From the NCBI RefSeq assembly GCF_947179165.1, contig NC_077243.1, positions 35,042,001-35,106,000 on the forward strand: 64,000 nucleotides of DNA, given 5' to 3'. Positions 22,354-64,000 of this stretch are shown here, in pieces (position 1 is the stretch's first letter; each line of letters begins with the position of its first letter). Below the pieces are notes generated by a model, which was given only the letters and a program-made list of their open reading frames with translations, searched no databases and was not told where the DNA came from. The DNA is from Solanum dulcamara. Lineage: Eukaryota > Streptophyta > Magnoliopsida > Solanales > Solanaceae. The translations under genes and the position numbers were made by a program.

Positions 22354-22357
22354 TGTT

Positions 22358-25944: not shown

Positions 25945-25952
25945 AAATGATA

Positions 25953-35333: not shown

Positions 35334-35378
35334 CTGCAAAAAAAAGAAGAATAAAATTGTTTATTTATTTATTATATA

Positions 35379-35414
<36 letters not shown>

Positions 35415-39359: not shown

Positions 39360-39364
39360 AAACT

Positions 39365-39376
39365 TGGTATCAGAGC
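39365..39376 (+). other. Primer-binding site of the truncated Tekay-like element
   Basis: TGGTATCAGAGC is an exact match to the initiator methionine tRNA complement also seen in copia-2. It lies about five bases past the LTR end. Confidence 0.9.
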
Positions 39377-39575
39377 TCGAGGTTTTGAATGATCCTTGGA
39401 GTCCAACATACCGCGTCAAATAGGGTCTTATTCATGGTTGTGAAGTGCGCCACAATTATGAATAGGAGACTATAAGGCGTTTAGGAAAAGTTTTCACTTC
39501 TTTCAAATTCATGTCGTGCCTTAGAGCATCCTAAGCTTTCCTTTAACTAACGGCCCATTTTGTTTGCTCTAGATA

Positions 39576-39956: not shown

Positions 39957-40086
39957 ATTGTGGCGCGCTTCACAACCATGAAGTGTGAAAGTGTCATCCC
40001 AAAGAGTTTCTCGATTTATGATTCGTCTTTCCAAACATGGTAAAGAAGTTTCAATATTTTTGGTACAATGATTAGGAGTACAAAGT
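39957..40086. other. Junction filler at the truncated element's right end
   Basis: It starts with 26 bp (39957-39982) that match the leader at 39432-39457 in inverted orientation with one mismatch. About 100 bp that I could not assign follow. It is neither gag nor LTR. Confidence 0.6.
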
Positions 40087-40294
40087 AACACGCCTTGGGA
40101 GGACGGCTATTATATTCAAGAGTCCAATCATCTAAACCAGGAAGTTCCCCCAAATATGGCCAGTAAGTAGCATATTGGCCAGCTAATGGCGTAGTTACAA
40201 GCAATTTTGTCTCCACCTCACTATCCTTATGATCTGATATCACAAGGTATTTCAACTCTGAAGAAGAGGAAGTTAAATCTCTAAAGTAAACCAC

Positions 40295-40411
40295 AATTCA
40301 ATCTGCAATTTTTTTTATTAACTCTTAAATTAGTAATTCAATAATCATGGTCATGAATCTCAATATGAACGTTTATATTCTTTGAGCAATAACTATGCCT
40401 AATCTAGATGA
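40295..40411. other. Spacer upstream of the antisense gene start and before the minisatellite
   Basis: This AT-rich spacer would hold the promoter of the antisense gene if that gene was ever transcribed. I see no convincing TATA box. Confidence 0.4.
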
Positions 40412-41215
40412 TGGAAAGTCTTTACAAATAGTGTAAAGTCTTTACCTTGGATGGTATAAAGTCTTTGGGCTTGGACTATGGGATGCCTTTGACTCAGATG
40501 GTGTAAAGTCTTTGCCACAAATCATGTAAAGTCCTTGCCTTAGATGGCGTAAAGTCTTTGGCTTGGACTATAGAATGCCTTTGACTCAGACGGTGTAAAG
40601 TCTTCGACACAAATGATGTAAAGTCTTTGCCTTAGATGGTGTAAAGTCTTTGGCTCGGACGACATGATACCTTTAGTTCGAATCATGTAAAGTCTTTAAC
40701 TTGGACTATGAGATTCCTTTGACTTAGATGGTGTAAAGTATTTGCCAAAAATTATGAAAAGTCTTTGCCTTATATGGTATAAAGTCTCTGGCTTGGACTA
40801 TGTGATGCCTTTGACTCAGACGATGTAAAGTCTTTGCCATAAATCATATAAAGTCTTTGACTTAGATGGTGTAAAGTCTTTGGTTCAGATGATGTGATAC
40901 CTTCAATTCAAATAATGTAAAGTCTTTTCCTTAGATGGTATAAAGTATTCGGCTTGGACTATGTAATTTCGTTGACTCAAACGGTGTAAAGTTTTTGCGA
41001 CAAATCATGTAAAGTCTTTGCCTTAGACGGTATAAAGTCTTTGGCTTGGACTATGTGGTGTCTTTTAACTCAGACAGTGTAAAGTCTTTGCCATAAATTA
41101 TGTAAAATCTTTGTCTTAGATAGTGTAATGTCTTTGGCTCGAATGTCTTTGGCTCAAACAATGCGACACCTTCGAGTCAGATGGTGTAAAGTATTCGCAA
41201 AGGATGATGTAAAAT
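40412..41215. repeat. Founder minisatellite of the Tat 3' UTR (~22 bp units)
   Basis: Roughly 35 diverged units built on GTAAAGTCTTTG followed by CC or GC and TTAGATGGT or CACAAATCAT variants make up this ~800 bp block. Longer periodicity is visible from recurring CTTGGACTATG boxes. It is about twice as long as the same block in the satellite units (~430-460 bp), which correspond to its right part, from about 40757 on. Confidence 0.9.
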
Positions 41216-41265
41216 TATTGACTACATAAGATACAACTATTGCTTCTATTGATTAAGAAAACACA

Positions 41266-41306
41266 CAAAAGAACGAAAGAACGAAAGAACAAAAAAAAAG
41301 AAAAAT
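41266..41306. repeat. A/G-rich tract of the satellite unit (first copy)
   Basis: GAACGAAAGAACGAAAGAAC followed by an A-rich AAAAAGAAAAA run. This purine block recurs in every unit with variable length and explains most of the unit-length differences. It suggests replication slippage. Confidence 0.85.
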
Positions 41307-41406
41307 GTATCGCATATCTTGATTCTGCACGATGAACTCAAGAGTGTATGCAAAAAAGAGCATCAAAATTGCCAATGCCAATGATAAAAATAAATAAAAG
41401 GAGAGA

Positions 41407-41459
41407 GTCTATTTATAGACGGTGAGGGAGTTCTTCTCCCAAAGTAACTATAATTACTT
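41407..41459. repeat. Cluster of three small inverted repeats conserved in all units (first copy)
   Basis: GTCTATTTATAGAC (41407-41420), GGGAGTTCTTCTCCC (41426-41440) and AGTAACTATAATTACTT (41443-41459) follow each other within 53 bp. They recur in every unit with few changes. They could have been RNA structures of the element's 3' UTR. Confidence 0.7.
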
Positions 41460-41860
41460 TATGGGTTAGGACTCTAGTGGAATGGTACAAATTTATTTTC
41501 TCCAAATCCTAATTGGTTGTGGAATTGTGAAAATTTGGGCTATTTTTATTCTAAAAGGAGGTTGTCCTTTTTGAATTCATATTCGATGATTATTATTATT
41601 TTTTTTGGTTAGCAAATGTCTACCCTTTATTTTGTTGATCTCTATCCTATTCTAATTGTTCAAATCTAGTAAAAATTGCATTAGCCACCTGATCAAGTTT
41701 CAATTGGAGTCTCATTATTTACTCCAACTATGTCACTCTAATTGGAGGAACATACTAATTTAATATTTTCATGGTGCATATTAAATTGCACGACATACGA
41801 TTATCATTTAGTTAATACTTCAAGGCTAGACTTTGTATAAAATACTTCGACAAGACTTGA

Positions 41861-41873
41861 AGTAGGGGGCATT
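41861..41873 (+). other. Polypurine tract of the Tat element inside the satellite unit
   Basis: AGTAGGGGGCATT directly precedes the LTR-derived TGCAAGCATT. The G-run resembles a plus-strand primer and recurs at the same place in the units. Confidence 0.75.
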
Positions 41874-42000
41874 TGCAAGCATTAAAATTTTATTGGATTT
41901 AAATCCGTAAATTAAATTATAATATATTAAATTCAAGAAAATAATTCAAATAATGTGGCAATTCAGGTCAAATTAAATGAGCCATTAAAAGCACACCATG
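41874..42000 (+). repeat. LTR-derived end of the satellite unit (first copy)
   Basis: The 127 bp from TGCAAGCATT to CACACCATG match the start of the 5' LTR at 25736 (TTAAAATTTTATTGGATTTA, AAATTAAATTATACTATATT). They then match the first 58 bp minisatellite unit (AAATTAAATGAGCCACTAAA). The ~125 bp protease-bearing insert of the 5' LTR is absent here. The segment ends abruptly where the next unit's minisatellite begins. Confidence 0.92.
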
Positions 42001-45000
42001 TAAAGTCTTTGCCTTATATGGTATAACGTCTCTGGATTAGACTATGGGATGCCTTTGACTCAGACGGTGTAAAGTCTTTGCCACAAATCATATAAAGTCT
42101 TTGACTTAGATGGTGTAATGTCTTTGTCTTAGATGATATGATACCTTCAATTCAAATAATGTAAAGTCTTTTCCTTAGATGGTATAAAGTCTTCGTCTTG
42201 GACTATGTATTTTCGTTGACTCAAACGGGGTAAACTTTTTGCGACATATCATGTAAAGTCTTTGCCTTAGACGGTATAAAGTCTTTGGCTTGGACTATGT
42301 GGTGTCTTTTAACTCAGACAGTGTAAAGTCTTTGCCATAAATTATGTAAAATCTTTGTCTTAGATAGTGTAATGTCTTTGGCTCGAACAATGCGACACCT
42401 TCGAGTCAGATGGAATAAAGTATTCACAAAGGATGATGTAAAATTATTGACTCCATAAGATACAACTATTGCTTCTATTGATTAACAAAACACACAAAAG
42501 AACGAAAGAACGAAAGAACAAAAAAAAGAAAAAAGAAAAATGTATCTCATATCTTGATTCAGCACGATGAACTCAAGAGTGTATGCAAAAAAGAGCATCA
42601 AAATTGCCAACGCCAATGATAAAAATAAATAAAAGGAGAGAGTCTATTTATAGACGGCGAGGGAGTCCTTCTCCCAAAGTAACTATAATTACTTTTTAGG
42701 TTAGGACTCTAGTGGAATGGTACAAATTTATTTTCTCCAAATCCTAATTGGTTGTGGAATTGTGAAAATTTGGGCTATTTTTATTCTAAAAGGAGGTTGT
42801 CCTTTTTGAATTCATATTCGATGATTATTATTATTATTTTTGGTTAGCAAATGTCTACCCTTTATTTTGTTGATCTCTATCCTATTCTAATTGTTCAAAT
42901 CTAGTAAAAAATGCATTAGCCACATGATCAAGTTTCAATTGGAGTCTCATTATTTACTCCAACTATGTCACTCTAATTGGAGGAACATACTAATTTAATA
43001 TGTTCATGGTGCATATTAAATTGCACGACATACGATTATCGTTTAGTTAATACTTCAAGGATAGACTTTGTATAAAATACTTCGACAAGACTTGAAGTAG
43101 GGGGCATTTGTAAGCATTAAAATTTTATTGGATTTAAATCCATAAATTAAATTATACTATATTAAATTCAAGAAAATAATTTAAATAATGTGGCAATTCA
43201 GGTCAAATTAAATGAGTCACTAAAAGCACACCATGTAAAGTCTTTGCCTTATATGGTATAACGTCTCTGGATGGGACTATGGGATGCCTTTGAGTTAGAT
43301 GATGTAAAGTCTTTGCCACAAATCATATAAAGTCTTTGACTTAGATGGTGTAAAGTCTTTGGCTCAGATGATGTGATACCTTCAATTCAAATAATGTAAA
43401 GTCTTTTCCTTAGATGGTATAAAGTCTTTGTCTTGGACTATGTATTTTCGTTGACTCAAACGGTGTAAAGTTTTTGCGACAAATCATGTAAAGTCTTTGG
43501 CTTAGACGTTATAAAGTCTTTGGCTTGGATATGTGGTGTCTTTTAACTTAGACAGTGTAAAGTCTTTGCCATAAATTATGTAAAATCTTTGTCTTAGATA
43601 GTGTAATGTCTTTGGCTCGAACAATGCGACACCTTCGAGTCAGATGGTGTAAAGTATTCGCAAAGGATGATGTAAAATTATTGACTCCATAAGATACAAC
43701 TATTGCTTCTATTAATTAAGAAAACACACAAAAGAACGAAAGAACGAAAGAACAAAAAAAAGAAAAAAGAAAAGCATACCTCATATCTTGATTCTGCACG
43801 ATGAACTCAAGAGTGTATGCAAAAAAGAGCATCAAAATTGCCAATGCCAATGATAAAAATAAATAAAAGGAGAGAGTCTATTTATAGACGGTGAGGGAGT
43901 CCTTCTCCCAAAGTAACTATAATTACTTTATGGGTTGGGACTCTAGTGGAATGGTACAAATTTATTTTCTCCAAATCCTAATTGGTTGTGGAATTGTGAA
44001 AATTTGGGCTATTTTTATTCTAAAAGGAGGTTGTCCTTTTTGAATTCATATTCGATGATTATTATTATTATTGTTGGTTAGCAAAGGTCTACCCTTTATT
44101 TTGTTGATCTCTATCCTATTCTAATTGTTCAAATCTAATAAAAAATGCATTAGCCACCTGATCAAGTTTCAATTGGAGTCTCATTATTTACTCCAACTAT
44201 GTCACTCTAATTGGAGGAACATACTAATTTAATATATTCATGGTGCATATTAAATTGCATGACATACGATTATCGTTTAGTTAATACTTCAAGGCTAGAC
44301 TTTGTATAAAATACTTCAACAAGACTTGAAGTAGGGGGCATTTGCAAGCATTAAAATTTTATTGGATTTAAATCCATAAATTAAATTATAATATATTAAA
44401 TTCAAGAAAATAATTCAAATAATGTGGTAATTTAGGTCAAATTAAATGAGCCATTAAAAGCACACCATGTAAAGTCTTTGCCTTATATGGTATAACGTCT
44501 CTGGATTGGACTACGGGATGCCTTTGACTCAGACGGTGTAAAGTCTTTGCCACAAATCATATAAAGTCTTTGACTTAGATGGTGTAAAGTCTTTGTCTTA
44601 GATGATATGATACCTTCAATTCAAATAATGTAAAGTCTTTTCCTTAGATGGTATAAAGTCTTCGTCTTGGAGTATGTATTTTCGTTGACTCAAACGGGGT
44701 AAATATTTTGCGACAAATCATGTAAAGTCTTTGCATTAGACGGTATAATATCTTTGGCTTGGACTATCTGGTGTCTTTTAACTCAGACAGTGTAAAGTCT
44801 TTGCCATAAATTATGTAAAATCTTTGTCTTAGATAGTGTAATGTCTTTGGCTCGAACAATGCGACACCTTCGAGTCAGATGGTGTAAAGTATTCGCAAAG
44901 GATGATGTAAAATTATTGACTCCATAAGATACAACTATTGCTTCTATTGATTAAGAAAACACACAAAAGAACGAAAGAATGAAAGAACAAAAAAAAGAAA

Positions 45001-48000
45001 AAAGAAAAATGTATCTCATATCTTGATTCAGCACGATGAACTCAAGAGTGTATGCAAAAGAGAGCATCAAAATTGCCAATGTCAATGATAAAAATAAATA
45101 AATGGAGAGAGTCTATTTATAGACGGCGAGGGAGTCCTTCTCCCAAAGTAACTATAATTACTTTTTGGGTTAGGACTCTAGTGGAATGGTACAAATTTAT
45201 TTTCTCCAAATCCTAATTGGTTGTGGAATTGTGAAAATTTGGGCTATTTTTATTCTAAAAGGAGGTTGTCCTTTTTGAATTCATATTCGATGATTATTAT
45301 TATTATTTTTGGTTAGCAAATGTCTACCCTTTATTTTGTTGATCTCTATCCTATTCTAATTGTTCAAATCTAGTAAAAAATGCATTAGCCACATGATCAA
45401 GTTTCAATTGGAGTCTCATTATTTACTCCAACTATGTCACTCTAATTGGAGGAACATACTAATTTAATATGTTCATGGTGCATATTAAATTGCACGACAT
45501 ACGATTATCGTTTAGTTAATACTTCAAGGATAGACTTTGTATAAAATACTTCGACAAGACTTGAAGTAGCGGCATTTGCAAGCATTAAAATTTTATTGGA
45601 TTTAAATCCATAAATTAAATTATACTATATTAAATTCAAGAAAATAATTTAAATAATGTGGCAATTCAGGTCAAATTAAATGAGTCACTAAAAGCACACC
45701 ATGTAAAGTCTTTGCCTTATATGGTATAACGTCTCTGGATGGGACTATGGGTTGTCTTTGACTTAGATGATGTAAAGTCTTTGCCACAAATCATATAAAG
45801 TCTTTGACTTAGATGGTGTAAAGTCTTTGTCTCAGATGATGTGATACCTTCAATTCAAATAATGTAAAGTCTTTTCCTTAGATGGTATAAAGTCTTTGTC
45901 TCGGACTATGTATTTTCGTTGACTCAAACGGTGTAATGTTTTTGCGACAAATCATGTAAAGTCTTTGCCTTAGAAGGTATAAAGTCTTTGGCTTGGATAT
46001 GTGGTGTCTTTTAACTCAGACAGTGTAAAGTCTTTGCCATAAATTATGTAAAATCTTTGTCTTAGATAGTCTAATGTCTTTGGCTCGAACAATGCGACAC
46101 CTTCGAGTCAGATGGTGTAAAGTATTCGCAAAGGATGATGTAAAATTATTGACTCCATAAGATACAACTATTGCTTCTATTGATTAAGAAAACACACAAA
46201 AGAACGAAAGAACGAAAGAACAAAAAAAGAGAAAAAAGAAAAATGTATCTCATATCTTGATTCTGCACGATGAACTCAAGAGTGTATGCAAAAAAGAGCA
46301 TTAAAATTGTCAATGCCAATGATAAAAATAAATAAAAGGAGAGAGTCTATTTATAGACGGTGAGGGAGTCCTTCTCCCAAAGTAACTATAATTACTTTTT
46401 GGGTTAGGACTCTAGTGGAATGGTATAAATTTATTTTCTCCAAATCCTAATTGGTTGTGGAATTGTGAAAATTTGGGCTATTTTAATTCTAAAAGAAGGT
46501 TGTCCTTTTTGAATTCATATTCATGATTTTTATTATTATTTTTTGTTAGCAAATGTCTACCCTTTATTTTGTTGATCTCTATCCTATTCTAATTGTTCAA
46601 ATCTAGTAAAAAAATGCATTAGCCACATGATCAAGTTTCAATTGGAGTCTCATTATTTACTCCAACTATGTCACTCTAATTGGAGGAACATACTAATTTA
46701 ATATGTTCATGGTGCATATTAAATTGCACGACATACGATTATCATTTAGTTAATACTTCAAGGCTAGACTTTGTATAAAATACTTCGACAAGACTTGAAG
46801 TAGGGGGCATTTGCAAGCATTAAAATTTTATTGGATTTAAATCCGTAAATTAAATTATAATATATTAAATTCAAGAAAATAATTCAAATAATGTGGCAAT
46901 TCAGGTCAAATTAAATGAGCCATTAAAAGCACACCATGTAAAGTCTTTGCCTTATATGGTATAACGTCTCTGGATTAGACTATGGGATGCCTTTGAGTCT
47001 GACGGTGTAAAGTCTTTGCCACAAATCATATAAAGTCTTTGACTTAGATGGTGTAAAGTCTTTGGCTCAGATGAAGTGATACCTTCAATTCAAATAATGT
47101 AAAGTCTTTTCCTTAGATGGTCTAAACTATTTGGCTTGGACTATGTAATTTCGTTGACTCACACGGTGTAAACTTTTTGCGACATATCATGTAAAGTCTT
47201 TGCCTTAGACGGTATAAAGTCTTTGGCTTGGACTATGTGGTGTCTTTTAACTCAGACAGTGTAAAGTCTTTGCCATAAATTATGTAAAATTTTTGTCTTA
47301 GATAGTGTAATATCTTTGGCTCGAACAATGCGACACCTTTGAGTAAGATGGTGTAAAGTATTCGCAAAGGATGATGTAAAATTATTGACTCCATAAGATA
47401 CAACTATTGCTTCTATTGATTAAGAAAACACACAAAAGAACGAAAGAATGAAAGAACATAAAAAAAGAAAAAGAAAAAAAAAAGAAAAAAGAATAGCATA
47501 CCTCATATCTTGATTCTGCACGATGAACTCAAGAGTGTATGCAAAAAAGAGCATCAAAATTGCCAATGCCAATGATAAAAATAAATAAAAGGAGAGAGTC
47601 TATTTATAGACGGTGAGGGAGTCCTTCTCCCAAAATAACTATAATTAATTTTTGGGTTAGGACTCTAGTGGAATGGTACAAATTTATTTTCTCCAAATCC
47701 TAATTGGTTGTGGAATTGTGAAAAATTTAGGCTATTTTTATTCTAAAAGGAGGTTGTACTTTTTGAATTCATATTCGATGATTATTATTATTATTTTTGG
47801 TTAGCAAATGTCTACCATTTATTTTGTTGATCTCTATCCTATTCTAATTGTTCAAATCTAGTAAAAAAATGCATTAGACACATGATCAAGTTTCAATTGG
47901 AGTCTCATTATTTACTCCAACTATGTCACTCTAATTGGAGGAACATACTAATTTAATATGTTCATGGTGCATATTAAATTGCACGACATACGATTATCGT

Positions 48001-51000
48001 TTAGTTAATACTTCAAGGCTAGACTTTGTATAAAATACTTCGACAAGACTTGAAGTAGAGGGCATTTGCAAGCATTAAAATTTTATTGGATTTAAATCCG
48101 TAAATTAAATTATACTATATTAAATTCAAGAAAATATTTCAAATAATGTGGCAATCCAGGTAAAATTAAACGAGCCACTAAAAGCACACCATGTAAAGTC
48201 TTTGCCTTATATGGTATAAAGTCTCTGGCTTGGACTATGGGATGTCTTTGACTCAGACAGTGTAAAGTCTTTGCCACAAATCATTTAAAGTCTTTTACTT
48301 AGATGGTGTAAAGTCTTTGGCTCAGATGAAGTGATACCTTCAATTCAAATAATGAAATGTCTTTTCCTTAGATGGTATAAACTATTTGGCTTGGACTATA
48401 TAATTTCGTTGACTCAAACGGTGTAAAGTTTTTGCGACAAATCATGTAAAGTCCTTGCATTAGACGGTATAAAGTCTTTGGATTGGACTATGTGGTGTCT
48501 TTTAACTTAGACAGTGTAAATTTTTTGCCATAAATTATGTCAAATTTTTGTCTTAGATAGTGTAATATCTTTGGCTCGAACAATGCGACACCTTTGAGTC
48601 AGATGGTGTAAAGTATTCGCAAAGGATGATGTAAAATTATTGACTCCATAAGATACAACTATTGCTTCTATTGATTAAGAAAACATACAAAAGAACGAAA
48701 GAACGAAAGAACATAAAAAAAGAAAAAGAAAAAAAAAAGAAAAAAGAAAAGCATACCTCATATCTTGATTCTGCACGATGAACTCAAGAGTGTATGCAAA
48801 AAAAAGCATCAAAATTGCCAATGCCAATGATAAAAATAAATAAAAGGAGAGAGTCTATTTATAGACGGTGAGGGAGTCCTTCTCCCAAAGTAACTATAAT
48901 TACTTTTTGGATTAGGACTCTAGTGGAATGGTACAAATTTATTTTCTCCAAATCCTAATTGGTTGTGGAATTGTGAAAATTTAGGCTATTTTTATTCTAA
49001 AAGGAGGTTGTCCTTTTTGAATTCATATTCGATGATTATTATTATTATTTTTGGTTAGCAAATGTCTACCCTTTATTTTGTTGATCTCTATCCTATTCTA
49101 ATTGTTCAAATCTAGTAAAAAAATGCATTAGCCACATGATCAAGTTTCAATTGGAGTGTCATTATTTACTCCAACTATGTCACTCTAATTGGAGGAACAT
49201 ACTAATTTAATATGTTCATGGTGCATATTAAATTGCACGACATACGATTATCGTTTAGTTAATACTTCAAGGCTAGACTTTGTATAAAATACTTCGACAA
49301 GACTTGAAGTAGAGGGCATTTGCAAGCATTAAAATTTTATTGGATTTAAATCCGTAAATTAAATTATACTATATTAAATTCAAGAAAATATTTCAAATAA
49401 TGTGGCAATCCAGGTAAAATTAAACGAGCCACTAAAAGCACACCATGTAAAGTCTTTGCCTTATATGGTATAAAGTCTCTGGCTTGGACTATGGGATGCC
49501 TTTGACTCAGACAGTGTAAAGTCTTTGCCACAAATCATTTAAAGTCTTTTACTTAGATGGTGTAAAGTCTTTAGCTCAGATGAAGTGATACCTTCAATTC
49601 AAATAATGAAATGTCTTTTCTTTAGATGGTATAAACTATTTGGCTTGGACTATATAATTTCGTTGACTCAAACGGTGTAAAGTTTTTGTGACAAATCATG
49701 TAAAGTCTTTGCATTAGACGGTATAAAGTCTTTGGATTGGACTATGCGGTGTCTTTTAACTCAGACAGTGTAAAGTTTTTGCCATAAATTATGTCAAATT
49801 TTTGTCTTAGATAGTGTAATATCTTTGGCTCGAACAATGCGACACCTTTGAGTCAGATGGTGTAAAGTATTCGCAAAGGATGATGTAAAATTATTGACTC
49901 CATAAGATACAACTATTGCTTCTATTGATTAAGAAAACACACAAAAGAACGAAAGAACAAAAAAAAAGAAAAAAAAAAGAAAAAAGAAAAATGTACCTCA
50001 TATCTTGATTCTGCACGATGAACTCAAGAGTGTATGCAAAAAAGAGCATCAAAATTGCCAATGCCAATGATAAAAATAAATAAAAGGAGAGAGTCTATTT
50101 ATAGACGGTGAGGGAGTCCTTCTCCCAAAGTAACTATAATTACTTTTTGGGTTAGGACTCTAGTGGAATGGTACAAATTTATTTTCTCCAAATCCTAATT
50201 TGTTGTGGAATATTGAAAATTTGGGCTATTTTTATTCTAAAAGGAGGTTGTCCTTTTTGAATTCATATTCGATGATTATTATTATTATTTTTGGTTAGCA
50301 AATGTCTACCCTTTATTTTGTTGATCTCTATCCTATTCTAATTGTTCAAATCTAGTAAAAAAATGCATTAGCCACATAATCAAGTTTCAATTGGAGTCTC
50401 ATTATTTACTCCAACTATGTCACTCTAATTGGAGGAACATACTAATTTAATATGTTCATGGTGCATATTAAATTGCGAGACATAAGATTATCATTTAGTT
50501 AATACTTCAATGCTAGACTTTATATAAACTACTTCGACAAGACTTGAAGTAGGGGGCATTTGTAAGCATTAAAATTTTATTGGATTTAAATTCGTAAATT
50601 AAATTATACTATATTAAATTCAAGAAAATAATTCAAATAATGTGGCAATTCAGGTCAAATTAAATGAGCCACTAAAAGCACACCATGTAAAGTCTTTGCC
50701 TTATATGGTATAAAGTCTTTGGCTTGGACTATGGGATGCCTTTGACTCAGACGATGTAAAGTCTTTGCCACAAATCATATAAAGTCTTTGACATAGATGG
50801 TGTAAAGTCTTTGGCTCAGATGATGTGATACCTTCAATTCAAATAATGTAAAGTCTTTTCCTTAGATGGTATAAAGTATTTGGCTTGGATTATGTAATTT
50901 CGTTGACTCAAATGGTGTAAAGTTTTTGCGACCAATCATGTAAAGTCTTTGCCTTAGACGGTATAAAGTCTTTGGCTTGGACTATGTGGTGTCTTTTAAC

Positions 51001-54000
51001 TCAGACAGTGTAAAGTCTTTGCCATAAATTATGTAAAATCTTTGTCTTAGATAGTGTAATGTCTTTGGCTCGAACAATGCGACACCTTTGAGTAAGATGG
51101 TGTAAAGTATTCGCAAATGATGATGTAAAATTATTGACTCCATAAGATACAACTATTGCTTCTATTGATTAAGAAAACACACAAAAGAACGAAAGAAAAA
51201 AAAAAGAAAAAAAAAAAGAAAAAAGAAAAATGTACCTCATATCTTGATTCTGCACGATGAACTCAAGAGTGTATGCAAAAAAGAGCATCAAAATTGCCAA
51301 TGCCAATGATAAAAATAAATAAAAGGAGAGAGTCTATTTATAGACGGTGAGGGAGTCCTTCTCCCAAAGTAACTATAATTACTTTTTGGGTTAGGACTCT
51401 AGTGGAATGGTACAAATTTATTTTCTCCAAATCCTAATTTGTTGTGGAATATTGAAAATTTGGGCTATTTTTATTCTAAAAGGAGGTTGTCCTTTTTGAA
51501 TTCATATTCGATGATTATTATTATTATTTTTGATTAGCAAATGTCTACCCTTTATTTTGTTGATCTCTATCCTATTCTAATTGTTCAAATCTAGTAAAAA
51601 AATGCATTAGCCACATGATCAAGTTTCAATTGGAGTCTCATTATTTACTCCAACTATGTCACTCTAATTGGAGGAACATACTAATTTAATATGTTCATGG
51701 TGCATATTAAATTGCACGACATACGATTATCGTTTAGTTAATACTTCAAGGCTAGACTTTATATAAACTACTTCGACAAGACTTGAAGTAGGGGGCATTT
51801 GCAAGCATTAAAATTTTATTGGATTTAAATTCGTAAATTAAATTATACTATATTAAATTCAAGGAAATAATTCAAATAATGTGGCAATTCAGGTCAAATT
51901 AAATGAGCCACTAAAAGCACACCATGTAAAGTCTTTGCCTTATATGGTATAAAGTCTCTGGCTTGGACTATAGGATGCCTTTGACTCAGACGGTGTAAAG
52001 TCTTTGCCACAAATCAAGTAAAGTCTTTGACTTAGATGGTGCAAATTCTTTGGCTCGGATGATGTGATACCTTCAATTCAAATAATGTAAAGTCTTTTCC
52101 TTAGATGGTATAAAGTATTTGGCTTGGATTATGTAATTTCGTTGACTCAAATGGTGTAAAGTTTTTGCGACAAATCATGTAAAGTCTTTGCCTTAGACGG
52201 TATAAAGTCTTTGGCTTGGACTATGTGGTGTCTTTTAACTCAGACAGTGTAAAGTCTTTGCCATAAATTATGTAAAATCTTTGTCTTAGATAGTGTAATG
52301 TCTTTGGCTCGAACAATGCGACACCTTTGAGTCAGATGGTGTAAAGTATTCGCAAATGATGATGTAAAATTATTGAATCCATAAGATACAACTATTGCTT
52401 CTATTGATTAAGAAAACACACAAAAGAACGAAAGAACAAAAAAAAAGAAAAAAAAAGAAAAAAGAAAAATGTACCTCATATCTTGATTCTGCACGATGAA
52501 CTCAAGAGTGTATGCAAAAAAAAGCATCAAAATTGCCAATGCCAATGATAAAAATAAATAAAAGGAGAGAGTCTATTTATAGACGGTGAGGGAGTCCTTC
52601 TCCCAAAGTAACTATAATTACTTTTTGGGTTAGGACTCTAGTGGAATGGTACAAATTTATTTTCTCCAAATCCTAATTTGTTGTGGAATATTGAAAATTT
52701 GGGCTATTTTTATTCTAAAAGGAGGTTGTCCTTTTTGAATTCATATTCGATGATTATTATTATTATTTTTGATTAGCAAATGTCTACCCTTTATTTTGTT
52801 GATCTCTATCCTATTCTAATTGTTCAAATCTAGTAAAAAAATGCATTAGCCACATGATCAAGTTTCAATTGGAGTCTCATTATTTACTCCAACTATGTCA
52901 CTCTAATTGGAGGAACATACTAATTTAATATGTTCATGGTGCATATTAAATTGCACGACATACGATTATCGTTCAGTTAATACTTCAAGGCTAGACTTTA
53001 TATAAACTACTTCGACAAGACTTGAAGTAGGGGGCATTTGCAAGCATTAAAATTTTATTGGATTTAAATTCGTAAATTAAATTATACTATATTAAATTCA
53101 AGCAAATAATACAAATAATGTGGCAATTCAGGTCAAATTAAATGAGCCACTAAAAGCACACCATGTAAAGTCTTTGCCTTATATGGTATAAAGTCTCTGG
53201 CTTGGACTATGGGATGCCTTTGACTCAGACGGTGTAAAGTCTTTGCCACAAATCAAGTAAAGTCTTTGACTTAGATGGTGCAAATTCTTTGGCTCGGATG
53301 ATGTGATACATTCAATTCAAATAATGTAAAGTCTTTTCCTTAGATGGTATAAAGTATTTGGCTTGGATTATGTAATTTCGTTGACTCAAATGATGTAAAG
53401 TTTTTGCGACAAATCATGTAAAGTCTTTGCCTTAGACGGTATAAAGTCTTTGGCTTGGACTATGTGGTGTCTTTTAACTCAGACAGTGTAAAGTCTTTGT
53501 CATAAATTACGTAAAATCTTTGTCTTAGATAGTGTAATGTCTTTGGCTCGAACAATGCGACAACTTTGAGTCAGATGGTGTAAAGTATTCGCAAATGATG
53601 ATGTAAAATTATTGACTCCATAAGATACAACTATTGCTTCTATTGATTAAGAAAACACACAAAAGAACGAAAGAACAAAAAAAAAGAAAAAAAAAAGAAA
53701 AAAGAAAAATGTACCTCATATCTTGATTCTGCACGATGAACTCAAGAGTGTATGCAAAAAAGAGCATCAAAATTGCCAATGCCAATGATAAAAATAAATA
53801 AAAGGAGAGAGTCTATTTATAGACGGTGAGGGAGTCCTTCTCCCAAAGTAACTATAATTACTTTTTGGGTTAGGACTCTAGTGGAATGGTACAAATTTAT
53901 TTTCTCCAAATCCTAATTTGTTGTGGAATATTGAAAATTTGGGCTATTTTTATTCTAAAAGGAGGTTGTCCTTTTTGAATTCATATTCGATGATTATTAT

Positions 54001-57000
54001 TATTATTTTTGATTAGCAAATGTCTACCCTTTATTTTGTTGATCTCTATCCTATTCTAATTGTTCAAATCTAGTAAAAAAATGCATTAGCCACATGATCA
54101 AGTTTCAATTGGAGTCTCATTATTTACTCCAACTATGTCACTCTAATTGGAGGAACATACTAATTTAATATGTTCATGGTGCATATTAAATTGCGAGACA
54201 TACGATTATCATTTAGTTAATACTTCAAGCCTAGACTTTATATAAACTACTTCGACAAGACTTGAAGTAGGGGGCATTTGCAAGCATTAAAATTTTATTG
54301 GATTTAAATTCGTAAATTAAATTATACTATATTAAATTCAAGAAAATAATTCAAATAATGTGGCAATTCAGGTCAAATTAAATGAGCCACTAAAAGCACA
54401 CCATGTAAAGTCTTTGCCTTATATGGTATAAAGTCTCTGGCTTGGACTATGGGATGCCTTTGACTCAGACGGTGTAAAGTCTTTTCCACAAATCAAGTAA
54501 AGTCTTTGACTTAGATGGTGCAAATTCTTTGGCTCGGATGATGTGATACCTTCAATTCAAATAATGTAAAGTCTTTTCCTTAGATGGTATAAAGTATTTG
54601 GCTTGGATTATGTAATTTCGTTGACTCAAATGGTGTAAAGTTTTTGCGACAAATCATGTAAAGTCTTTGCCTTAGACGGTATAAAGTCTTTGGCTTGGAC
54701 TATGTGGTGTCTTTTAACTCAGACAGTGTAAAGTCTTTGCCATAAATTATGTAAAATCTTTGTCTTAGATAGTGTAATGTCTTTGGCTCGAACAATGCGA
54801 CACCTTTGAGTCAGATGGTGTAAAGTATTCGCAAATGATGATGTAAAATTATTGACTCCATAAGATACAACTATTGCTTCTATTGATTAAGAAAACACAC
54901 AAAAGAACGAAAGAACAAAAAAAAAGAAAAAAAAAAAAAAGAAAAATGTACCTCATATCTTGATTCTGCACGATGAACTCAAGAGTGTATGCAAAAAAGA
55001 GCATCAAAATTGCCAATGCCGATGATAAAAATAAATAAAAGGAGAGAGTCTATTTATAGACGGTGAGGGAGTCCTTCTCCCAAAGTAACTATAATTACTT
55101 TTTGGGTTAGGACTCTAGTGGAATGGTACAAATTTATTTTCTCCAAATCCTAATTTGTTGTGGAATATTGAAAATTTGGGCTATTTTTATTCTAAAAGGA
55201 GGTTGTCCTTTTTGAATTCATATTCGATGATTATTATTATTATTTTTGATTAGCAAATGTCTACCCTTTATTTTGTTGATCTCTATCCTATTCTAATTGT
55301 TCAAATCTAGTAAAAAAATGCATTAGCCACATGATCAAGTTTCAATTGGAGTCTCATTATTTACTCCAACTATGTCACTCTAATTGGAGGAACATACTAA
55401 TTTAATATGTTCATGGTGCATATTAAATTGCGAGACATACGATTATCATTTAGTTAATACTTCAAGCCTAGACTTTATATAAAATACTTCGACAAGACTT
55501 GAAGTAGGGGGCATTTGCAAGCATTAAAATTTTATTGGATTTAAATTCGTAAATTAAATTATACTATATTAAATTCAAGAAAATAATTCAAATAATGTGG
55601 CAATTCAGGTCAAATTAAATGAGCCACTAAAAGCACACCATGTAAAGTCTTTGCCTTATATGGTATAAAGTCTCTGGCTTGGACTATGGGATGCCTTTGA
55701 CTCAGACGATGTAAAGTCTTTGCCACAAATCAAGTAAAGTCTTTGACTTAGATGGTGCAAATTCTTTGGCTCGGATGATGTGATACCTTCAATTCAAATA
55801 ATGTAAAGTCTTTTCCTTAGATGGTATAAAGTATTTGGCTTGGATTATGTAATTTCGTTGACTCAAATGGTGTAAAGTTTTTGCGACAAATCATGTAAAG
55901 TCTTTGCCTTAGACGGTATAAAGTCTTTGGCTTGGACTATGTGGTGTCTTTTAACTCAGACAGTGTAAAGTCTTTGCCATAAATTATGTAAAATCTTTGT
56001 CTTAGATAGTGTAATGTCTTTGGCTCGAACAATGCGACACCTTTGAGTAAGATGGTGTAAAGTATTCGCAAATGATGATGTAAAATTATTGACTCCATAA
56101 GATACAACTATTGCTTCTATTGATTAAGAAAACACACAAAAGAACGAAAGAACAAAAAAAAAGAAAAAAAAAAAAGAAAAATGTACCTCATATCTTGATT
56201 CTGCACGATGAACTCAAGAGTGTATGCAAAAAAGAGCATCAAAATTGCCAATGCCAATGATAAAAATAAATAAAAGGAGAGAGTCTATTTATAGACGGTG
56301 AGGGAGTCCTTCTCCCAAAGTAACTATAATTACTTTTTGGGTTAGGACTCTAGTGGAATGGTACAAATTTATTTTCTCCAAATCCTAATTTGTTGTGGAA
56401 TATTGAAAATTTGGGCTATTTTTATTCTAAAAGGAGGTTGTCCTTTTTGAATTCATATTCGATGATTATTATTATTATTTTTGATTAGCAAATGTCTACC
56501 CTTTATTTTGTTGATCTCTATCCTATTCTAATTGTTCAAATCTAGTAAAAAAATGCATTAGCCACATGATCAAGTTTCAATTGGAGTCTCATTATTTACT
56601 CCAACTATGTCACTCTAATTGGAGGAACATACTAATTTAATATGTTCATGGTGCATATTAAATTGCGAGACATACGATTATCGTTTAGTTAATACTTCAA
56701 GCCTAGACTTTATATAAAATACTTCGACAAGACTTGAAGTAGGGGGCATTTGCAAGCATTAAAATTTTATTGGATTTAAATTCGTAAATTAAATTATACT
56801 ATATTAAATTCAAGAAAATAATTCAAATAATGTGGCAATTCAGGTCAAATTAAATGAGCCACTAAAAGCACACCATGTAAAGTCTTTGCCTTATATGGTA
56901 TAAAGTCTCTGGCTTGGACTATGGGATGCCTTTGACTCAGACGATGTAAAGTCTTTGCCACAAATCAAGTAAAGTCTTTGACTTAGATGGTGCAAATTCT

Positions 57001-60000
57001 TTGGCTCGGATGATGTGATACCTTCAATTCAAATAATGTAAAGTCTTTTCCTTAGATGGTATAAAGTATTTGGCTTGGATTATGTAATTTCGTTGACTCA
57101 AATGGTGTAAAGTTTTTGCGACAAATCATGTAAAGTCTTTGCCTTAGACGGTATAAAGTCTTTGGCTTGGACTATGTGGTGTCTTTTAACTCAGACAGTG
57201 TAAAGTCTTTGCCATAAATTATGTAAAATCTTTGTCTTAGATAGTGTAATGTCTTTGGCTCGAACAATGCGACACCTTTGAGTAAGATGGTGTAAAGTAT
57301 TCGCAAATGATGATGTAAAATTATTGACTCCATAAGATACAACTATTGCTTCTATTGATTAAGAAAACACACAAAAGAACGAAAGAACAAAAAAAAGAAA
57401 AAAAAAAGATAAAAGAAAAATGTACCTCATATCTTGATTCTGCACGATGAACTCAAGAGTGTATGCAAAAAAGAGCATCAAAATTGCCAATGCCAATGAT
57501 AAAAATAAATAAAAGGAGAGAGTCTATTTATAGACGGTGAGGGAGTCCTTCTCCCAAAGTAACTATAATTACTTTTTGGGTTAGGACTCTAGTGGAATGG
57601 TACAAATTTATTTTCTCCAAATCCTAATTTGTTGTGGAATATTGAAAATTTGGGCTATTTTTATTCTAAAAGGAGGTTGTCCTTTTTGAATTCATATTCG
57701 ATGATTATTATTATTATTTTTGATTAGCAAATGTCTACCCTTTATTTTGTTGATCTCTATCCTATTCTAATTGTTCAAATCTAGTAAAAAAATGCATTAG
57801 CCACATGATCAAGTTTCAATTGGAGTCTCATTATTTACTCCAACTATGTCACTCTAATTGGAGGAACATACTAATTTAATATGTTCATGGTGCATATTAA
57901 ATTGCGAGATATACGATTATCGTTTAGTTAATACTTCAAGCCTAGACTTTATATAAAATACTTCGACAAGACTTGAAGTAGGGGGCATTTGCAAGCATTA
58001 AAATTTTATTGGATTTAAATTCGTAAATTAAATTATACTATATTAAATTCAAGAAAATAATTCAAATAATGTGGCAATTCAGGTCAAATTAAATGAGCCA
58101 CTAAAAGCACACCATGTAAAGTCTTTGCCTTATATGGTATAAAGTCTCTGGCTTGGACTATGGGATGCCTTTGACTCAGACGGTGTAAAGTCTTTGCCAC
58201 AAATCAAGTAAAGTCTTTGACTTAGATGGTGCAAATTCTTTGGCTCGGATGATGTGATACCTTCAATTCAAATAATGTAAAGTCTTTTCCTTAGATGGTA
58301 TAAAGTATTTGGCTTGGATTATGTAATTTCGTTGACTCAAATGGTGTAAAGTTTTTGCGACAAATCATGTAAAGTCTTTGCCTTAGACGGTATAAAGTCT
58401 TTGGCTTGGACTATGTGGTGTCTTTTAACTCAGACAGTGTAAAGTCTTTGCCATAAATTATGTAAAATCTTTGTCTTAGATAGTGTAATGTCTTTGGCTC
58501 GAACAATGCGACACCTTTGAGTAAGATGGTGTAAAGTATTCGCAAATGATGATGTAAAATTATTGACTCCATAAGATACAACTATTGCTTCTATTGATTA
58601 AGAAAACACACAAAAGAACGAAAGAACAAAAAAAAGAAAAAAAAAAGAAAAAAGAAAAATGTACCTCATATCTTGATTCTGCACGATGAACTCAAGAGTG
58701 TATGCAAAAAAGAGCATCAAAATTGCCAATGCCAATGATAAAAATAAATAAAAGGAGAGAGTCTATTTATAGACGGTGAGGGAGTCCTTCTCCCAAAGTA
58801 ACTATAATTACTTTTTGGGTTAGGACTCTAGTGGAATGGTACAAATTTATTTTCTCCAAATCCTAATTTGTTGTGGAATATTGAAAATTTGGGCTATTTT
58901 TATTCTAAAAGGAGGTTGTCCTTTTTGAATTCATATTCGATGATTATTATTATTATTTTTGATTAGCAAATGTCTACCCTTTATTTTGTTGATCTCTATC
59001 CTATTCTAATTGTTCAAATCTAGTAAAAAAATGCATTAGCCACATGATCAAGTTTCAATTGGAGTCTCATTATTTACTCCAACTATGTCACTCTAATTGG
59101 AGGAACATACTAATTTAATATGTTCATGGTGCATATTAAATTGCGAGACATACGATTATCGTTTAGTTAATACTTCAAGCCTAGACTTTATATAAAATAC
59201 TTCGACAAGACTTGAAGTAGGGGGCATTTGCAAGCATTAAAATTTTATTGGATTTAAATTCGTAAATTAAATTATACTATATTAAATTCAAGGAAATAAT
59301 TCAAATAATGTGGCAATTCAGGTCAAATTAAATGAGCCACTAAAAGCACACCATGTAAAGTCTTTGCCTTATATGGTATAAAGTCTCTGGCTTGGACTAT
59401 GGGATGCCTTTGACTCAGACGGTGTAAAGTCTTTGCCACAAATCAAGTAAAGTCTTTGACTTAGATGGTGTAAAGTCTTTGGCTCAGATGAAGTGATACC
59501 TTCAATTCAAATAATGTAAAGTCTTTTCCTTAGATGGTATAAAGTATTTGGCTTGGATTATGTAATTTCGTTGACTCAAATGGTGTAAAGTTTTTGCGAC
59601 AAATCATGTAAAGTCTTTGCCTTAGACGGTATAAAGTCTTTGGCTTGGACTATGTGGTGTCTTTTAACTCAGACAGTGTAAAGTCTTTGCCATAAATTAT
59701 GTAAAATCTTTGTCTTAGATAGTGTAATGTCTTTGGCTCGAACAATGCGACACCTTTGAGTAAGATGGTGTAAAGTATTCGCAAATGATGATGTAAAATT
59801 ATTGACTCCATAAGATACAACTATTGCTTCTATTGATTAAGAAAACACACAAAAGAACGAAAGAACAAAAAAAAGAAAAAAAAAAGAAAAAAGAAAAATG
59901 TACCTCATATCTTGATTCTGCACGATGAACTCAAGAGTGTATGCAAAAAAGAGCATCAAAATTGCCAATGCCAATGATAAAAATAAATAAAAGGAGAGAG

Positions 60001-63000
60001 TCTATTTATAGACGGTGAGGGAGTCCTTCTCCCAAAGTAACTATAATTACTTTTTGGGTTAGGACTCTAGTGGAATGGTACAAATTTATTTTCTCCAAAT
60101 CCTAATTTGTTGTGGAATATTGAAAATTTGGGCTATTTTTATTCTAAAAGGAGGTTGTCCTTTTTGAATTCATATTCGATGATTATTATTATTATTTTTG
60201 ATTAGCAAATGTCTACCCTTTATTTTGTTGATCTCTATCCTATTCTAATTGTTCAAATCTAGTAAAAAAATGCATTAGCCACATGATCAAGTTTCAATTG
60301 GAGTCTCATTATTTACTCCAACTATGTCACTCTAATTGGAGGAACATACTAATTTAATATGTTCATGGTGCATATTAAATTGCACGACATACGATTATCG
60401 TTTAGTTAATACTTCAAGGCTAGACTTTATATAAACTACTTCGACAAGACTTGAAGTAGGGGGCATTTGCAAGCATTAAAATTTTATTGGATTTAAATTC
60501 GTAAATTAAATTATACTATATTAAATTCAAGGAAATAATTCAAATAATGTGGCAATTCAGGTCAAATTAAATGAGCCACTAAAAGCACACCATGTAAAGT
60601 CTTTGCCTTATATGGTATAAAGTCTCTGGCTTGGACTATGGGATGCCTTTGACTCAGACGGTGTAAAGTCTTTGCCACAAATCAAGTAAAGTCTTTGACT
60701 TAGATGGTGCAAATTCTTTGGCTCGGATGATGTGATACCTTCAATTCAAATAATGTAAAGTCTTTTCCTTAGATGGTATAAAGTATTTGGCTTGGATTAT
60801 GTAATTTCGTTGACTCAAATGGTGTAAAGTTTTTGCGACAAATCATGTAAAGTCTTTGCCTTAGACGGTATAAAGTCTTTGGCTTGGACTATGTGGTGTC
60901 TTTTAACTCAGACAGTGTAAAGTCTTTGCCATAAATTATGTAAAATCTTTGTCTTAGATAGTGTAATGTCTTTGGCTCGAACAATGCGACACCTTTGAGT
61001 AAGATGGTGTAAAGTATTCGCAAATGATGATGTAAAATTATTGACTCCATAAGATACAACTATTGCTTCTATTGATTAAGAAAACACACAAAAGAACGAA
61101 AGAACAAAAAAAAGAAAAAAAAAAAGAAAAAAGAAAAATGTACCTCATATCTTGATTCTGCACGATGAACTCAAGAGTGTATGCAAAAAAGAGCATCAAA
61201 ATTGCCAATGCCAATGATAAAAATAAATAAAAGGAGAGAGTCTATTTATAGACGGTGAGGGAGTCCTTCTCCCAAAGTAACTATAATTACTTTTTGGGTT
61301 AGGACTCTAGTGGAATGGTACAAATTTATTTTCTCCAAATCCTAATTTGTTGTGGAATATTGAAAATTTGGGCTATTTTTATTCTAAAAGGAGGTTGTCC
61401 TTTTTGAATTCATATTCGATGATTATTATTATTATTTTTGATTAGCAAATGTCTACCCTTTATTTTGTTGATCTCTATCCTATTCTAATTGTTCAAATCT
61501 AGTAAAAAAATGCATTAGCCACATGATCAAGTTTCAATTGGAGTCTCATTATTTACTCCAACTATGTCACTCTAATTGGAGGAACATACTAATTTAATAT
61601 GTTCATGGTGCATATTAAATTGCGAGACATACGATTATCGTTTAGTTAATACTTCAAGCCTAGACTTTATATAAAATACTTCGACAAGACTTGAAGTAGG
61701 GGGCATTTGCAAGCATTAAAATTTTATTGGATTTAAATTCGTAAATTAAATTATACTATATTAAATTCAAGGAAATAATTCAAATAATGTGGCAATTCAG
61801 GTCAAATTAAATGAGCCACTAAAAGCACACCATGTAAAGTCTTTGCCTTATATGGTATAAAGTCTCTGGCTTGGACTATGGGATGCCTTTGACTCAGACG
61901 GTGTAAAGTCTTTGCCACAAATCAAGTAAAGTCTTTGACTTAGATGGTGTAAAGTCTTTGGCTCAGATGAAGTGATACCTTCAATTCAAATAATGTAAAG
62001 TCTTTTCCTTAGATGGTATAAAGTATTTGGCTTGGATTATGTAATTTCGTTGACTCAAATGGTGTAAAGTTTTTGCGACAAATCATGTAAAGTCTTTGCC
62101 TTAGACGGTATAAAGTCTTTGGCTTGGACTATGTGGTGTCTTTTAACTCAGACAGTGTAAAGTCTTTGCCATAAATTATGTAAAATCTTTGTCTTAGATA
62201 GTGTAATGTCTTTGGCTCGAACAATGCGACACCTTTGAGTAAGATGGTGTAAAGTATTCGCAAATGATGATGTAAAATTATTGACTCCATAAGATACAAC
62301 TATTGCTTCTATTGATTAAGAAAACACACAAAAGAACGAAAGAACAAAAAAAAGAAAAAAAAAAGAAAAAAGAAAAATGTACCTCATATCTTGATTCTGC
62401 ACGATGAACTCAAGAGTGTATGCAAAAAAGAGCATCAAAATTGCCAATGCCAATGATAAAAATAAATAAAAGGAGAGAGTCTATTTATAGACGGTGAGGG
62501 AGTCCTTCTCCCAAAGTAACTATAATTACTTTTTGGGTTAGGACTCTAGTGGAATGGTACAAATTTATTTTCTCCAAATCCTAATTTGTTGTGGAATATT
62601 GAAAATTTGGGCTATTTTTATTCTAAAAGGAGGTTGTCCTTTTTGAATTCATATTCGATGATTATTATTATTATTTTTGATTAGCAAATGTCTACCCTTT
62701 ATTTTGTTGATCTCTATCCTATTCTAATTGTTCAAATCTAGTAAAAAAATGCATTAGCCACATGATCAAGTTTCAATTGGAGTCTCATTATTTACTCCAA
62801 CTATGTCACTCTAATTGGAGGAACATACTAATTTAATATGTTCATGGTGCATATTAAATTGCACGACATACGATTATCGTTTAGTTAATACTTCAAGGCT
62901 AGACTTTATATAAACTACTTCGACAAGACTTGAAGTAGGGGGCATTTGCAAGCATTAAAATTTTATTGGATTTAAATTCGTAAATTAAATTATACTATAT

Positions 63001-64000
63001 TAAATTCAAGGAAATAATTCAAATAATGTGGCAATTCAGGTCAAATTAAATGAGCCACTAAAAGCACACCATGTAAAGTCTTTGCCTTATATGGTATAAA
63101 GTCTCTGGCTTGGACTATGGGATGCCTTTGACTCAGACGGTGTAAAGTCTTTGCCACAAATCAAGTAAAGTCTTTGACTTAGATGGTGCAAATTCTTTGG
63201 CTCGGATGATGTGATACCTTCAATTCAAATAATGTAAAGTCTTTTCCTTAGATGGTATAAAGTATTTGGCTTGGATTATGTAATTTCGTTGACTCAAATG
63301 GTGTAAAGTTTTTGCGACAAATCATGTAAAGTCTTTGCCTTAGACGGTATAAAGTCTTTGGCTTGGACTATGTGGTGTCTTTTAACTCAGACAGTGTAAA
63401 GTCTTTGCCATAAATTATGTAAAATCTTTGTCTTAGATAGTGTAATGTCTTTGGCTCGAACAATGCGACACCTTTGAGTAAGATGGTGTAAAGTATTCGC
63501 AAATGATGATGTAAAATTATTGACTCCATAAGATACAACTATTGCTTCTATTGATTAAGAAAACACACAAAAGAACGAAAGAACAAAAAAAAGAAAAAAA
63601 AAAAGAAAAAAGAAAAATGTACCTCATATCTTGATTCTGCACGATGAACTCAAGAGTGTATGCAAAAAAGAGCATCAAAATTGCCAATGCCAATGATAAA
63701 AATAAATAAAAGGAGAGAGTCTATTTATAGACGGTGAGGGAGTCCTTCTCCCAAAGTAACTATAATTACTTTTTGGGTTAGGACTCTAGTGGAATGGTAC
63801 AAATTTATTTTCTCCAAATCCTAATTTGTTGTGGAATATTGAAAATTTGGGCTATTTTTATTCTAAAAGGAGGTTGTCCTTTTTGAATTCATATTCGATG
63901 ATTATTATTATTATTTTTGATTAGCAAATGTCTACCCTTTATTTTGTTGATCTCTATCCTATTCTAATTGTTCAAATCTAGTAAAAAAATGCATTAGCCA

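Follow-up and report, generated by a model that had tools for sequence, protein, structure and literature searches.

A satellite array that appears to have arisen in place from the 3' end of a Tat-type retrotransposon

Retrotransposon and antisense gene

The window (the whole 64,000-nucleotide stretch of Solanum dulcamara DNA that was analysed) contains an LTR, retrotransposon domain pieces, a split antisense gene and a tandem array. No tRNA gene was found by ARAGORN in the window, nor any known RNA family at the gathering score. The features left of the antisense gene were:

25736..26789, +: LTR akin to the LTR piece of the array, starting TGTAGGCATT and ending near TTTACA
25825..25957, +: 133-bp insert in this LTR, at the first 58-bp repeat (bounds alignment-dependent)
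25943-26232, +: 58-bp internal tandem repeats of this LTR
26385, +: forward TATA-like box in this LTR
27409..29281, no strand: 1.87-kb palindrome in the 5' half (arms about 936 bp, 87% identical), at the position expected of gag and protease
30565..30861, +: reverse transcriptase pieces in broken frames (PF00078, E 0.0089 and 1.6e-05)
31168..31368, +: RNase H piece (PF17919, E 1.3e-10)
31580..31771, +: second (archaeal-type) RNase H piece, aRH (PF13456, E 0.084, weak)
32441..32956, +: integrase core (PF00665, E 0.0014, under Pfam's cut-off)

The 3' end of the LTR was placed by eye from the sequence preceding TGGCACGCACAGTGGG; on its 5' side, the DNA directly before 25736 ends in ATCAC. Reverse transcriptase, RNase H, second RNase H and integrase follow one another in the order of angiosperm Tat elements, with the second RNase H, the hallmark of Tat elements, lying between RNase H and integrase. 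Within this second RNase H piece 26 of 38 residues are shared with the aRH part of P0076, which matches PF13456 at E 1.2e-05. Relatives of the integrase core were plant sequences, the best match being from Lycium barbarum (76%). Judged by its domains, the element is a decayed Tat-type Ty3/gypsy retrotransposon. No Pfam family for gag was found in the 22 open pieces scanned between 26866 and 33330, and a motif inside the palindrome that we take to be protease-like had no Pfam match. Weak matches of element pieces to unrelated Pfam families (E 0.02-0.1) were set aside.

The antisense gene and the fragment inserted in it were delimited as follows:

34600..37045, -: antisense gene, C-terminal part (outer limits approximate)
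36433-36693 and 36030-36281, -: colinear plant mobile domain pieces (PF10536)
37046..40010, +: truncated piece of a different LTR retrotransposon, with LTR-like sequence, splitting the antisense gene (rearranged at its right end)
40019..40297, -: ORF piece read as the antisense gene's N-terminal end (similarity to P0121)

The inserted fragment presumably includes a gag-like start; no Pfam family was found at 39789-40040. The N-terminal ORF piece, which had no Pfam match, showed 74% identity to P0121 (68 aa) over 73% of its length, the one match among five candidates, and the Met start of P0121 falls at the matching place in the piece. The two plant mobile domain pieces scored E 9.7e-08 and 5.6e-06 (32.0 and 26.2 bits, each alone under the cut-off of 34.9), and a homologue search with the piece at 36433-36693 returned no match. 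In the available portion of PMC6317226, a plant mobile domain in an extra ORF is given for 57% of Ogre elements, making it common but not defining alone. With two colinear PF10536 pieces in its antisense gene, the element is probably Ogre-like. The Tat element with an antisense gene that the preliminary description had proposed was thus recovered, both in its domain order and in its antisense plant-mobile-domain gene.

Structure of the tandem array

Positions 40755-64000 hold 18 complete units and one partial unit (929 bp) arranged head-to-tail, each complete unit being about 1239 bp long. From 40 kb to the window end, 1239 was the offset with the highest self-match count among those tried (100 to 3999), and a query with one unit returned 18 full-length matches (query included) and one 929-bp match. 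The array measures at least 23.2 kb and is still running at 64000, the window end; the locus therefore has the extended head-to-tail arrangement of near-identical units seen in satellite DNA. A tandem repeat of about 1.24 kb, at least 19 copies and a first unit at 40757-42000 had all been described beforehand, and all three held, the partial unit being the nineteenth copy and the first unit lying within a few bases of that placement. The parts of the array, and the minisatellite before it, were:

40405..40754, +: element-side ~23-bp minisatellite, outside the 1239-bp register (TRF and unit matching)
40755..41998, +: unit 1, complete, at the left end of the array
40755-41136, +: minisatellite of unit 1 (~23-bp repeats)
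to 41310, +: tail and A-rich stretch of unit 1, after the minisatellite
to about 41860, +: unique block of unit 1, between the A-rich stretch and the polypurine tract (PPT)
41861-41873, +: PPT of unit 1, directly 5' of the LTR start
41874-41998, +: LTR start of unit 1 (125 bp)
41999..50685, +: units 2-8, the diverged part (unit-to-unit comparison)
50686..64000, +: units 9-19, the homogenised part, extending past the window

The order within a complete unit was ~23-bp minisatellite (~382 bp), unique block, PPT and 125 bp of LTR start. This dissection supports the earlier reading of the unit as element 3' UTR (minisatellite plus unique block), PPT and LTR edge, and the 125 bp of unit 1 is near the roughly 127 bp of LTR start then given. 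The PPT-to-LTR-start junction was common to all 18 complete units, although the PPT itself varied slightly in units 4, 6 and 7, and each of the 18 ended in one and the same LTR-to-minisatellite junction. A pattern for the PPT-LTR junction had no match in virus and prokaryote contigs, which has no bearing on plants. A literature search combining PPT with satellite terms found no paper; we do not claim from this that such a unit is absent from print.

Recurrence of the LTR start at 25736, also described earlier, was borne out: it matched one unit over 84 bp at 91.7% (E 1.7e-28), far beyond chance. The 25736 LTR start differed from the unit LTR pieces at 9-12 of 130 aligned bases (6.9-9.2%), with 11 differences in unit 1, nine in units 2 and 8, and ten in five others. 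The 133-bp insert of this LTR, of which 74-75 bp match the palindrome arms at 88-91%, was absent from 18 of 18 complete units. Because the insert is missing from the units and the differences reach this level, the 25736 LTR may belong to another copy of the element family; it likely belongs to the same element as the array. The preliminary description had placed it upstream of gag and pol of that same element. Reverse transcriptase, RNase H and integrase pieces were found and gag was not; a single parent, though likely, is unproven, since the tie crosses the palindrome and the truncated foreign fragment and the LTR insert is missing from the units.

Left edge of the array

TRF reported a minisatellite of period 23 at 40405-41136, within a few bases of the start at 40412 noted before. 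Unit 1 shares the register of the other units from the very start: 19 of its first 20 bases, and all of the next 20, equal the majority of units 2-19. Compared without gaps, the 100 bp before unit 1 agreed with the unit's LTR end at just 32 of 100 positions. To the left of unit 1 the minisatellite instead continues without a break as far as the probable start of the antisense gene, in agreement with the earlier statement that unit 1 continues a longer minisatellite beside that gene. By arithmetic, a cut placed at random in the 1239-bp period would fall no more than 3 bp from the junction in about 7 of 1239 cases. On its left side the array thus starts at the duplication breakpoint, as expected of a satellite derived from an adjacent founder element.

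Since unit 1 is in register and is preceded by minisatellite and not by LTR, in-situ tandem duplication from the 3' end of one element fits the edge. An older satellite family captured by the element, or an array merely adjoining it, is very unlikely, as PPT and LTR start are ordered and oriented in the unit as they would be in an element, and the minisatellite is unbroken towards the antisense gene.

The same model would have the edge unit ancestral throughout, and unit 1 was not. Its LTR piece was that of unit 5 (0/125 differences) and its minisatellite was nearest to that of unit 9 (10/382 differences). The body of this unit combines array types as a mosaic; it is no pristine founder. Of the proposal that the founder is still attached, the left edge at the duplication breakpoint stands and the body of unit 1 does not.

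Divergence along the array

Pairwise differences were 1.9-5.3% among units 1-8 and 0-1.9% among units 9-19. Units 15, 17 and 19 (the 929-bp partial unit) were identical, as were units 16 and 18, and in the unit tree unit 2 paired with unit 4. Units further apart in the array were also more different in sequence (Mantel r 0.40, p 0.0003, 9,999 permutations). In units 1-8, C-to-T or G-to-A differences fell at 13 of 51 CG/CHG sites versus 40 of 338 CHH sites (one-sided Fisher p 0.011), while the corresponding counts in units 9-19 were 3/51 and 8/338. The substitutions of units 1-8 are suggestive of a methylation signature.

Exact two-unit block copies, as in units 15-19, are where assemblers can miscount; units 1-8 differ at many places, however, and the left edge is minisatellite-continuous, so that an assembly artefact, at the edge or among the near-identical units, has only a slight chance of being the explanation.

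Near-identical runs such as units 9-19 would also be expected if a one-unit extrachromosomal circle had been amplified by rolling circle and recombined into the 3' end of the element, and reintegration would leave the same left edge. We regard this route as improbable: the range from 5% to 0% and the two-unit identities fit long local turnover better than one burst.

Antisense TATA-like motif and minisatellite folding

A TATA-like box, GTCTATAAATAGAC, was found by motif search on the reverse strand (41407..41420 in unit 1). It occurred in 19 of 19 units versus none of 100 shuffles, the unit copies not being independent. The octamer TATAAATA occurred eight times outside the array over both strands (six and two), about 0.24 per unit length, and because of this frequency one per unit is unsurprising. 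The stretch 41395-41435 had three variable columns of 41, against 9/90 and 15/165 in its neighbours (11 unit types), and is hardly more conserved. Selfish satellite growth is the default reading of the array. It is doubtful, on this motif evidence, that the unit would double as promoter and leader for the element's antisense gene, with a complete antisense promoter in each copy and the array being self-transcribed. If it were so, the RNA of the array would cross successive minisatellites and could silence the locus as well as promote its instability.

Folding of the minisatellite was considered as a cause and rejected. In DNA form, the 382-bp minisatellite of one unit did not outdo shuffled sequences (z -0.04, 49 of 100 as good); in RNA form it was only weakly better (z -1.52, 6 of 100 as good).

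Proposed origin of the array

The array probably arose by in-place tandem duplication of the 3' end of the Tat element, followed by growth through unequal exchange. A Tat-type (probably Ogre-like) Ty3/gypsy element would have inserted at the locus. In an illegitimate event, DNA near position 125 of the 3' LTR would then have been joined back into the 3' UTR minisatellite, and this joining would have tandemly duplicated the segment minisatellite - unique block - PPT - LTR start. Short similarity is present at the junction (LTR CACACCACGTGTCAAAGTT, unit CACACCATGTAAAGTC, element minisatellite AAATTATGAAAAGTC), and we infer slippage or template switching during copying at a few similar bases. Unequal exchange among the ~1.24-kb copies, two-unit steps included, may subsequently have expanded and homogenised the array, which would leave diverged units beside the element and near-identical units away from it.

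The LTR-to-minisatellite junction sits between two internal tandem repeats with short similarity, which also suits a first duplication during reverse transcription, by template switch between the LTR start and the 3' UTR minisatellite. The element would then have inserted with at least two units, and later growth would have been chromosomal. That 3' UTR tandem repeats arise in element replication was hypothesised by Macas et al. (2009), as related in the accessible text of Vondrak et al. (PMC7004042). Under such an origin the oldest units should be as different as the two LTRs of the element. Units were at most 5.3% apart over their whole length, against 6.9-9.2% for the LTR at 25736 compared with the LTR pieces of the units, a comparison that is not decisive given 130 bases and homogenisation. 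We consider this origin possible, and lean towards duplication in place.

Comparison with known systems

The nearest likenesses are the Ogre-derived satellites FabTR-51, -52 and -54 to -60 of Lathyrus sativus. In the sections of PMC7004042 available, these arrays come from tandem repeats downstream of gag-pol in Tat-clade elements and, as here, the element can still adjoin the array; short FabTR-58 arrays interlaced with Ogre sequence at fixed intervals are listed as a further likeness. The nine FabTR satellites have monomers of 32-131 bp, whereas the present unit is 1.24 kb long and includes unique 3' UTR, PPT and LTR start.

CRM1TR and CRM4TR of maize likewise join an LTR part to a UTR part of one Ty3/gypsy element, and illegitimate recombination was proposed as the joining event (excerpts of PMC3648361, as for what follows). 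CRM4TR units hold a TATA box, downstream of which cDNAs begin. Their parent is a centromeric retrotransposon (CRM), unlike the present Tat-type element; their monomer runs from LTR to UTR (LTR-UTR~LTR model), whereas the present unit runs 3' UTR-PPT-LTR start; and those excerpts mention no parent element attached to an array. PisTR-A of pea, the Gmr9-associated minisatellite of soybean, and Sobo and St3/St18 of potato are alike by the listing of a review alone, which in its available part traces them to LTR retrotransposons, with the 3' UTR, the LTR or the border of the two as source (PMC9659126).

The precedent invoked in the preliminary description, that Tat/Ogre 3' UTR minisatellites and LTR pieces have been proposed to give rise to plant satellites, is matched by FabTR and by CRM1TR/CRM4TR. 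The route from element to satellite is already in print for other plants, and the present locus is a clean example of it. The beginnings of satellites can rarely be read, since turnover deprives arrays of their edges. In the present case, one stretch of DNA holds the edge register, the parent-side minisatellite and the gradient from diverged to near-identical units, making the model of in-place duplication testable, and the locus appears to show a mobile element becoming satellite DNA in place.

The tandem array

A head-to-tail array extended from 40755 to the window end with a period of 1239 bp (the best among offsets of 100–3999). Using a single unit as query, 18 complete copies, including the query itself, and a last copy of 929 bp clipped by the window edge were counted, in agreement with the at least 19 copies claimed in the preliminary description. 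Complete units were 1234–1255 bp long. On the plus strand each unit opened with a 382-bp minisatellite built from ~23-bp repeats, continued through a tail, an A-rich stretch and a unique block to a polypurine tract (PPT), and closed with 125 bp of a long terminal repeat (LTR) start beginning with TGYAAGCATTAAAATTTTATTGG. The PPT-to-LTR junction was seen in 18/18 complete units, confirming the proposed composition of 3' UTR minisatellite, unique block, PPT and LTR start; the exact GGGGGCA core occurred in 15 of the 18, with small variants in units 4, 6, and 7. The array is real and had been well described.

Left edge of the array

Unit 1 (40755–41998) was in register from its first base, with 19/20 and then 20/20 bases equal to the majority of the other units. 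The 100 bp before it, which are LTR in the other units, were minisatellite here and matched the LTR at only 32/100 places. By arithmetic, a random cut would land at an internal junction, with 3-bp tolerance, in ~7 of 1239 cases. Because an array randomly cut or pasted in would rarely begin at such a junction, the left edge is the best evidence for birth of the array in place. Tandem duplication of 40755–41998 would generate exactly this edge, and under that model the array should end on the right with the remainder of the LTR. The left edge would look no different had a circle recombined into the element. At the joint, a short CAYGT/ATG...AAAGT pattern was common to all three sequences, a similarity that fits presumed joining by slippage or template switching rather than homologous exchange over a long stretch.

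The retrotransposon upstream of the array

Features upstream of the array, in order
25736 to ~26789: LTR
Short stretch after the LTR, without a Pfam match
27409–29281: palindrome with 87% identical arms of ~936 bp, in the place expected for gag and protease
Then, in order: reverse transcriptase pieces, RNase H, second RNase H, integrase (Pfam and sequence comparison)
After the integrase, minus strand: antisense gene with plant mobile domain pieces
37046 to ~40010: foreign fragment, a truncated piece of another LTR retrotransposon
40019–40297, minus strand: antisense open piece (74% identity to a 68-aa protein across 73% of the length of the piece)

The reading frames of the element were broken at many places. 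Contrary to the gag claimed downstream of the 25736 LTR, no gag domain was found by Pfam in 22 open pieces of the element. The palindrome contains what we take to be a protease-like motif; Pfam gave no protease match there. Adjoining the palindrome, 27146–27418 was an inverted LTR piece 75% identical to 26521–26741. According to PMC6317226, an additional RNase H that follows the first and precedes integrase marks Ogre and Retand, the Tat subclades of angiosperms; the same source gives 57% as the share of Ogre elements with a plant mobile domain. Of 818 candidate proteins, 794 matched the integrase piece at E ≤ 1e-3; among the best 120 of these 794, Lycium barbarum led with 76% identity, and Sesamum, Solanum, Prunus, and Nicotiana were among the subsequent matches. 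These matches point to a probable host in the Solanaceae.

In this otherwise decayed element, a 239-bp stretch occurred twice side by side at 33744–34226 (99.6–100% identical), reflecting either very recent duplication or an error of assembly. Separately, another LTR retrotransposon occupied 14986–24496 on the minus strand, with LTR-like repeats at 14986–17198 and 22358–24496 (89% identical), gag (PF03732) at 21380–21979, and RNase H at 19194–19778.

The plant-mobile-domain part of the antisense gene stopped at ~37045, where the foreign fragment begins. Near the right end of this fragment, 39957–39982 (26 bp) was an inverted copy of 39431–39456 (96% identical), which suggests a foldback rearrangement. 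Inverted LTR-like stretches of a further retrotransposon, ~70–82% identical, lay at 37917–39362 inside the fragment and at 2993–4761. The 40019–40297 piece had no Pfam match; from its position and strand it was taken as the start of the same antisense gene, and the Met of the 68-aa protein fell at a place matching it. From this piece to unit 1 the DNA was unbroken, with ~110 bp followed by minisatellite from ~40405, as had been proposed. The array's direct tie is therefore to the antisense piece; its link to pol and to the 25736 LTR is less direct.

The LTR start of the units did recur at 25736, as claimed (84 bp, 91.7%, E 1.7e-28), with 9 to 12 differences per 130 aligned bases against the 18 complete units. 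The 25736 LTR was split by 133 bp (25825–25957, bounds depending on the alignment used), of which 74–75 bp were similar to the palindrome arms (88–91%). This insert was absent from 18/18 complete units: either the 25736 LTR acquired it once the element had inserted, or the array had another copy as its parent. That array and LTR belong to the same element, with a single parent, is likely, though short of proof, given the insert in the LTR and the palindrome and foreign fragment that lie in between.

Growth of the array

Pairwise differences were 1.9–5.3% among units 1–8 and 0–1.9% among units 9–19, and sequence distance rose with array distance (Mantel r 0.40, p 0.0003). The LTR divergence (6.9–9.2%) exceeds the largest unit divergence (5.3%). 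The first join could have been made during reverse transcription or on the chromosome; this difference leans weakly, given 130 bases and homogenisation, to a later, chromosomal join. Units 15, 17, and 19 were identical (over the 929 bp of unit 19), as were units 16 and 18, and units 2 and 4 grouped together in the tree (support 100/98); two-unit blocks thus appear to have been duplicated both early and late.

Unit 1 was placed with units 2–5 (97/95), near the midpoint. It was a mosaic: its LTR piece was that of unit 5 (0/125 differences), while its minisatellite was nearest to that of unit 9 (10/382). When the 25736 LTR served as outgroup, the units nearer to it than unit 1 (11 differences) were 2 and 8, with 9 each, and five others, with 10 each. 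Unit 1 has the founder's edge and an exchanged body. Of the idea that the founder, the element end that seeded the array, is still attached, the in-register left edge stands; an untouched founder unit does not. The preliminary interpretation is mostly right, but goes too far on the founder and on how intact the element is.

A possible antisense promoter

A TATA-like box on the antisense strand (41407–41420 in unit 1) was present in the unique block of 19/19 units, within a 14-bp near-palindrome and on the side from which transcription of the antisense gene would proceed. Each unit may therefore carry the promoter of that gene. However, comparable octamers are expected ~0.24 times per unit length in this DNA, and the box was hardly more conserved than its flanks.

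Comparison with known satellites

Vondrak et al. describe nine satellites of Lathyrus that grow out of tandem repeats located 3' of gag-pol in Ogre and are flanked by elements; one of them, FabTR-58, alternates with Ogre sequence at a fixed spacing (PMC7004042). In maize, Sharma et al. report satellites with a unit made of the LTR and UTR of one element and propose illegitimate recombination (PMC3648361). The review PMC9659126 gives other examples, among them the Gmr9 minisatellite of soybean, which lies between 3' UTR and LTR. As far as these accounts go, the S. dulcamara array appears to follow the same route, one already known from other plants. What it adds is the combination of minisatellite, unique block, PPT, and LTR start in each 1.24-kb unit, together with a readable edge.
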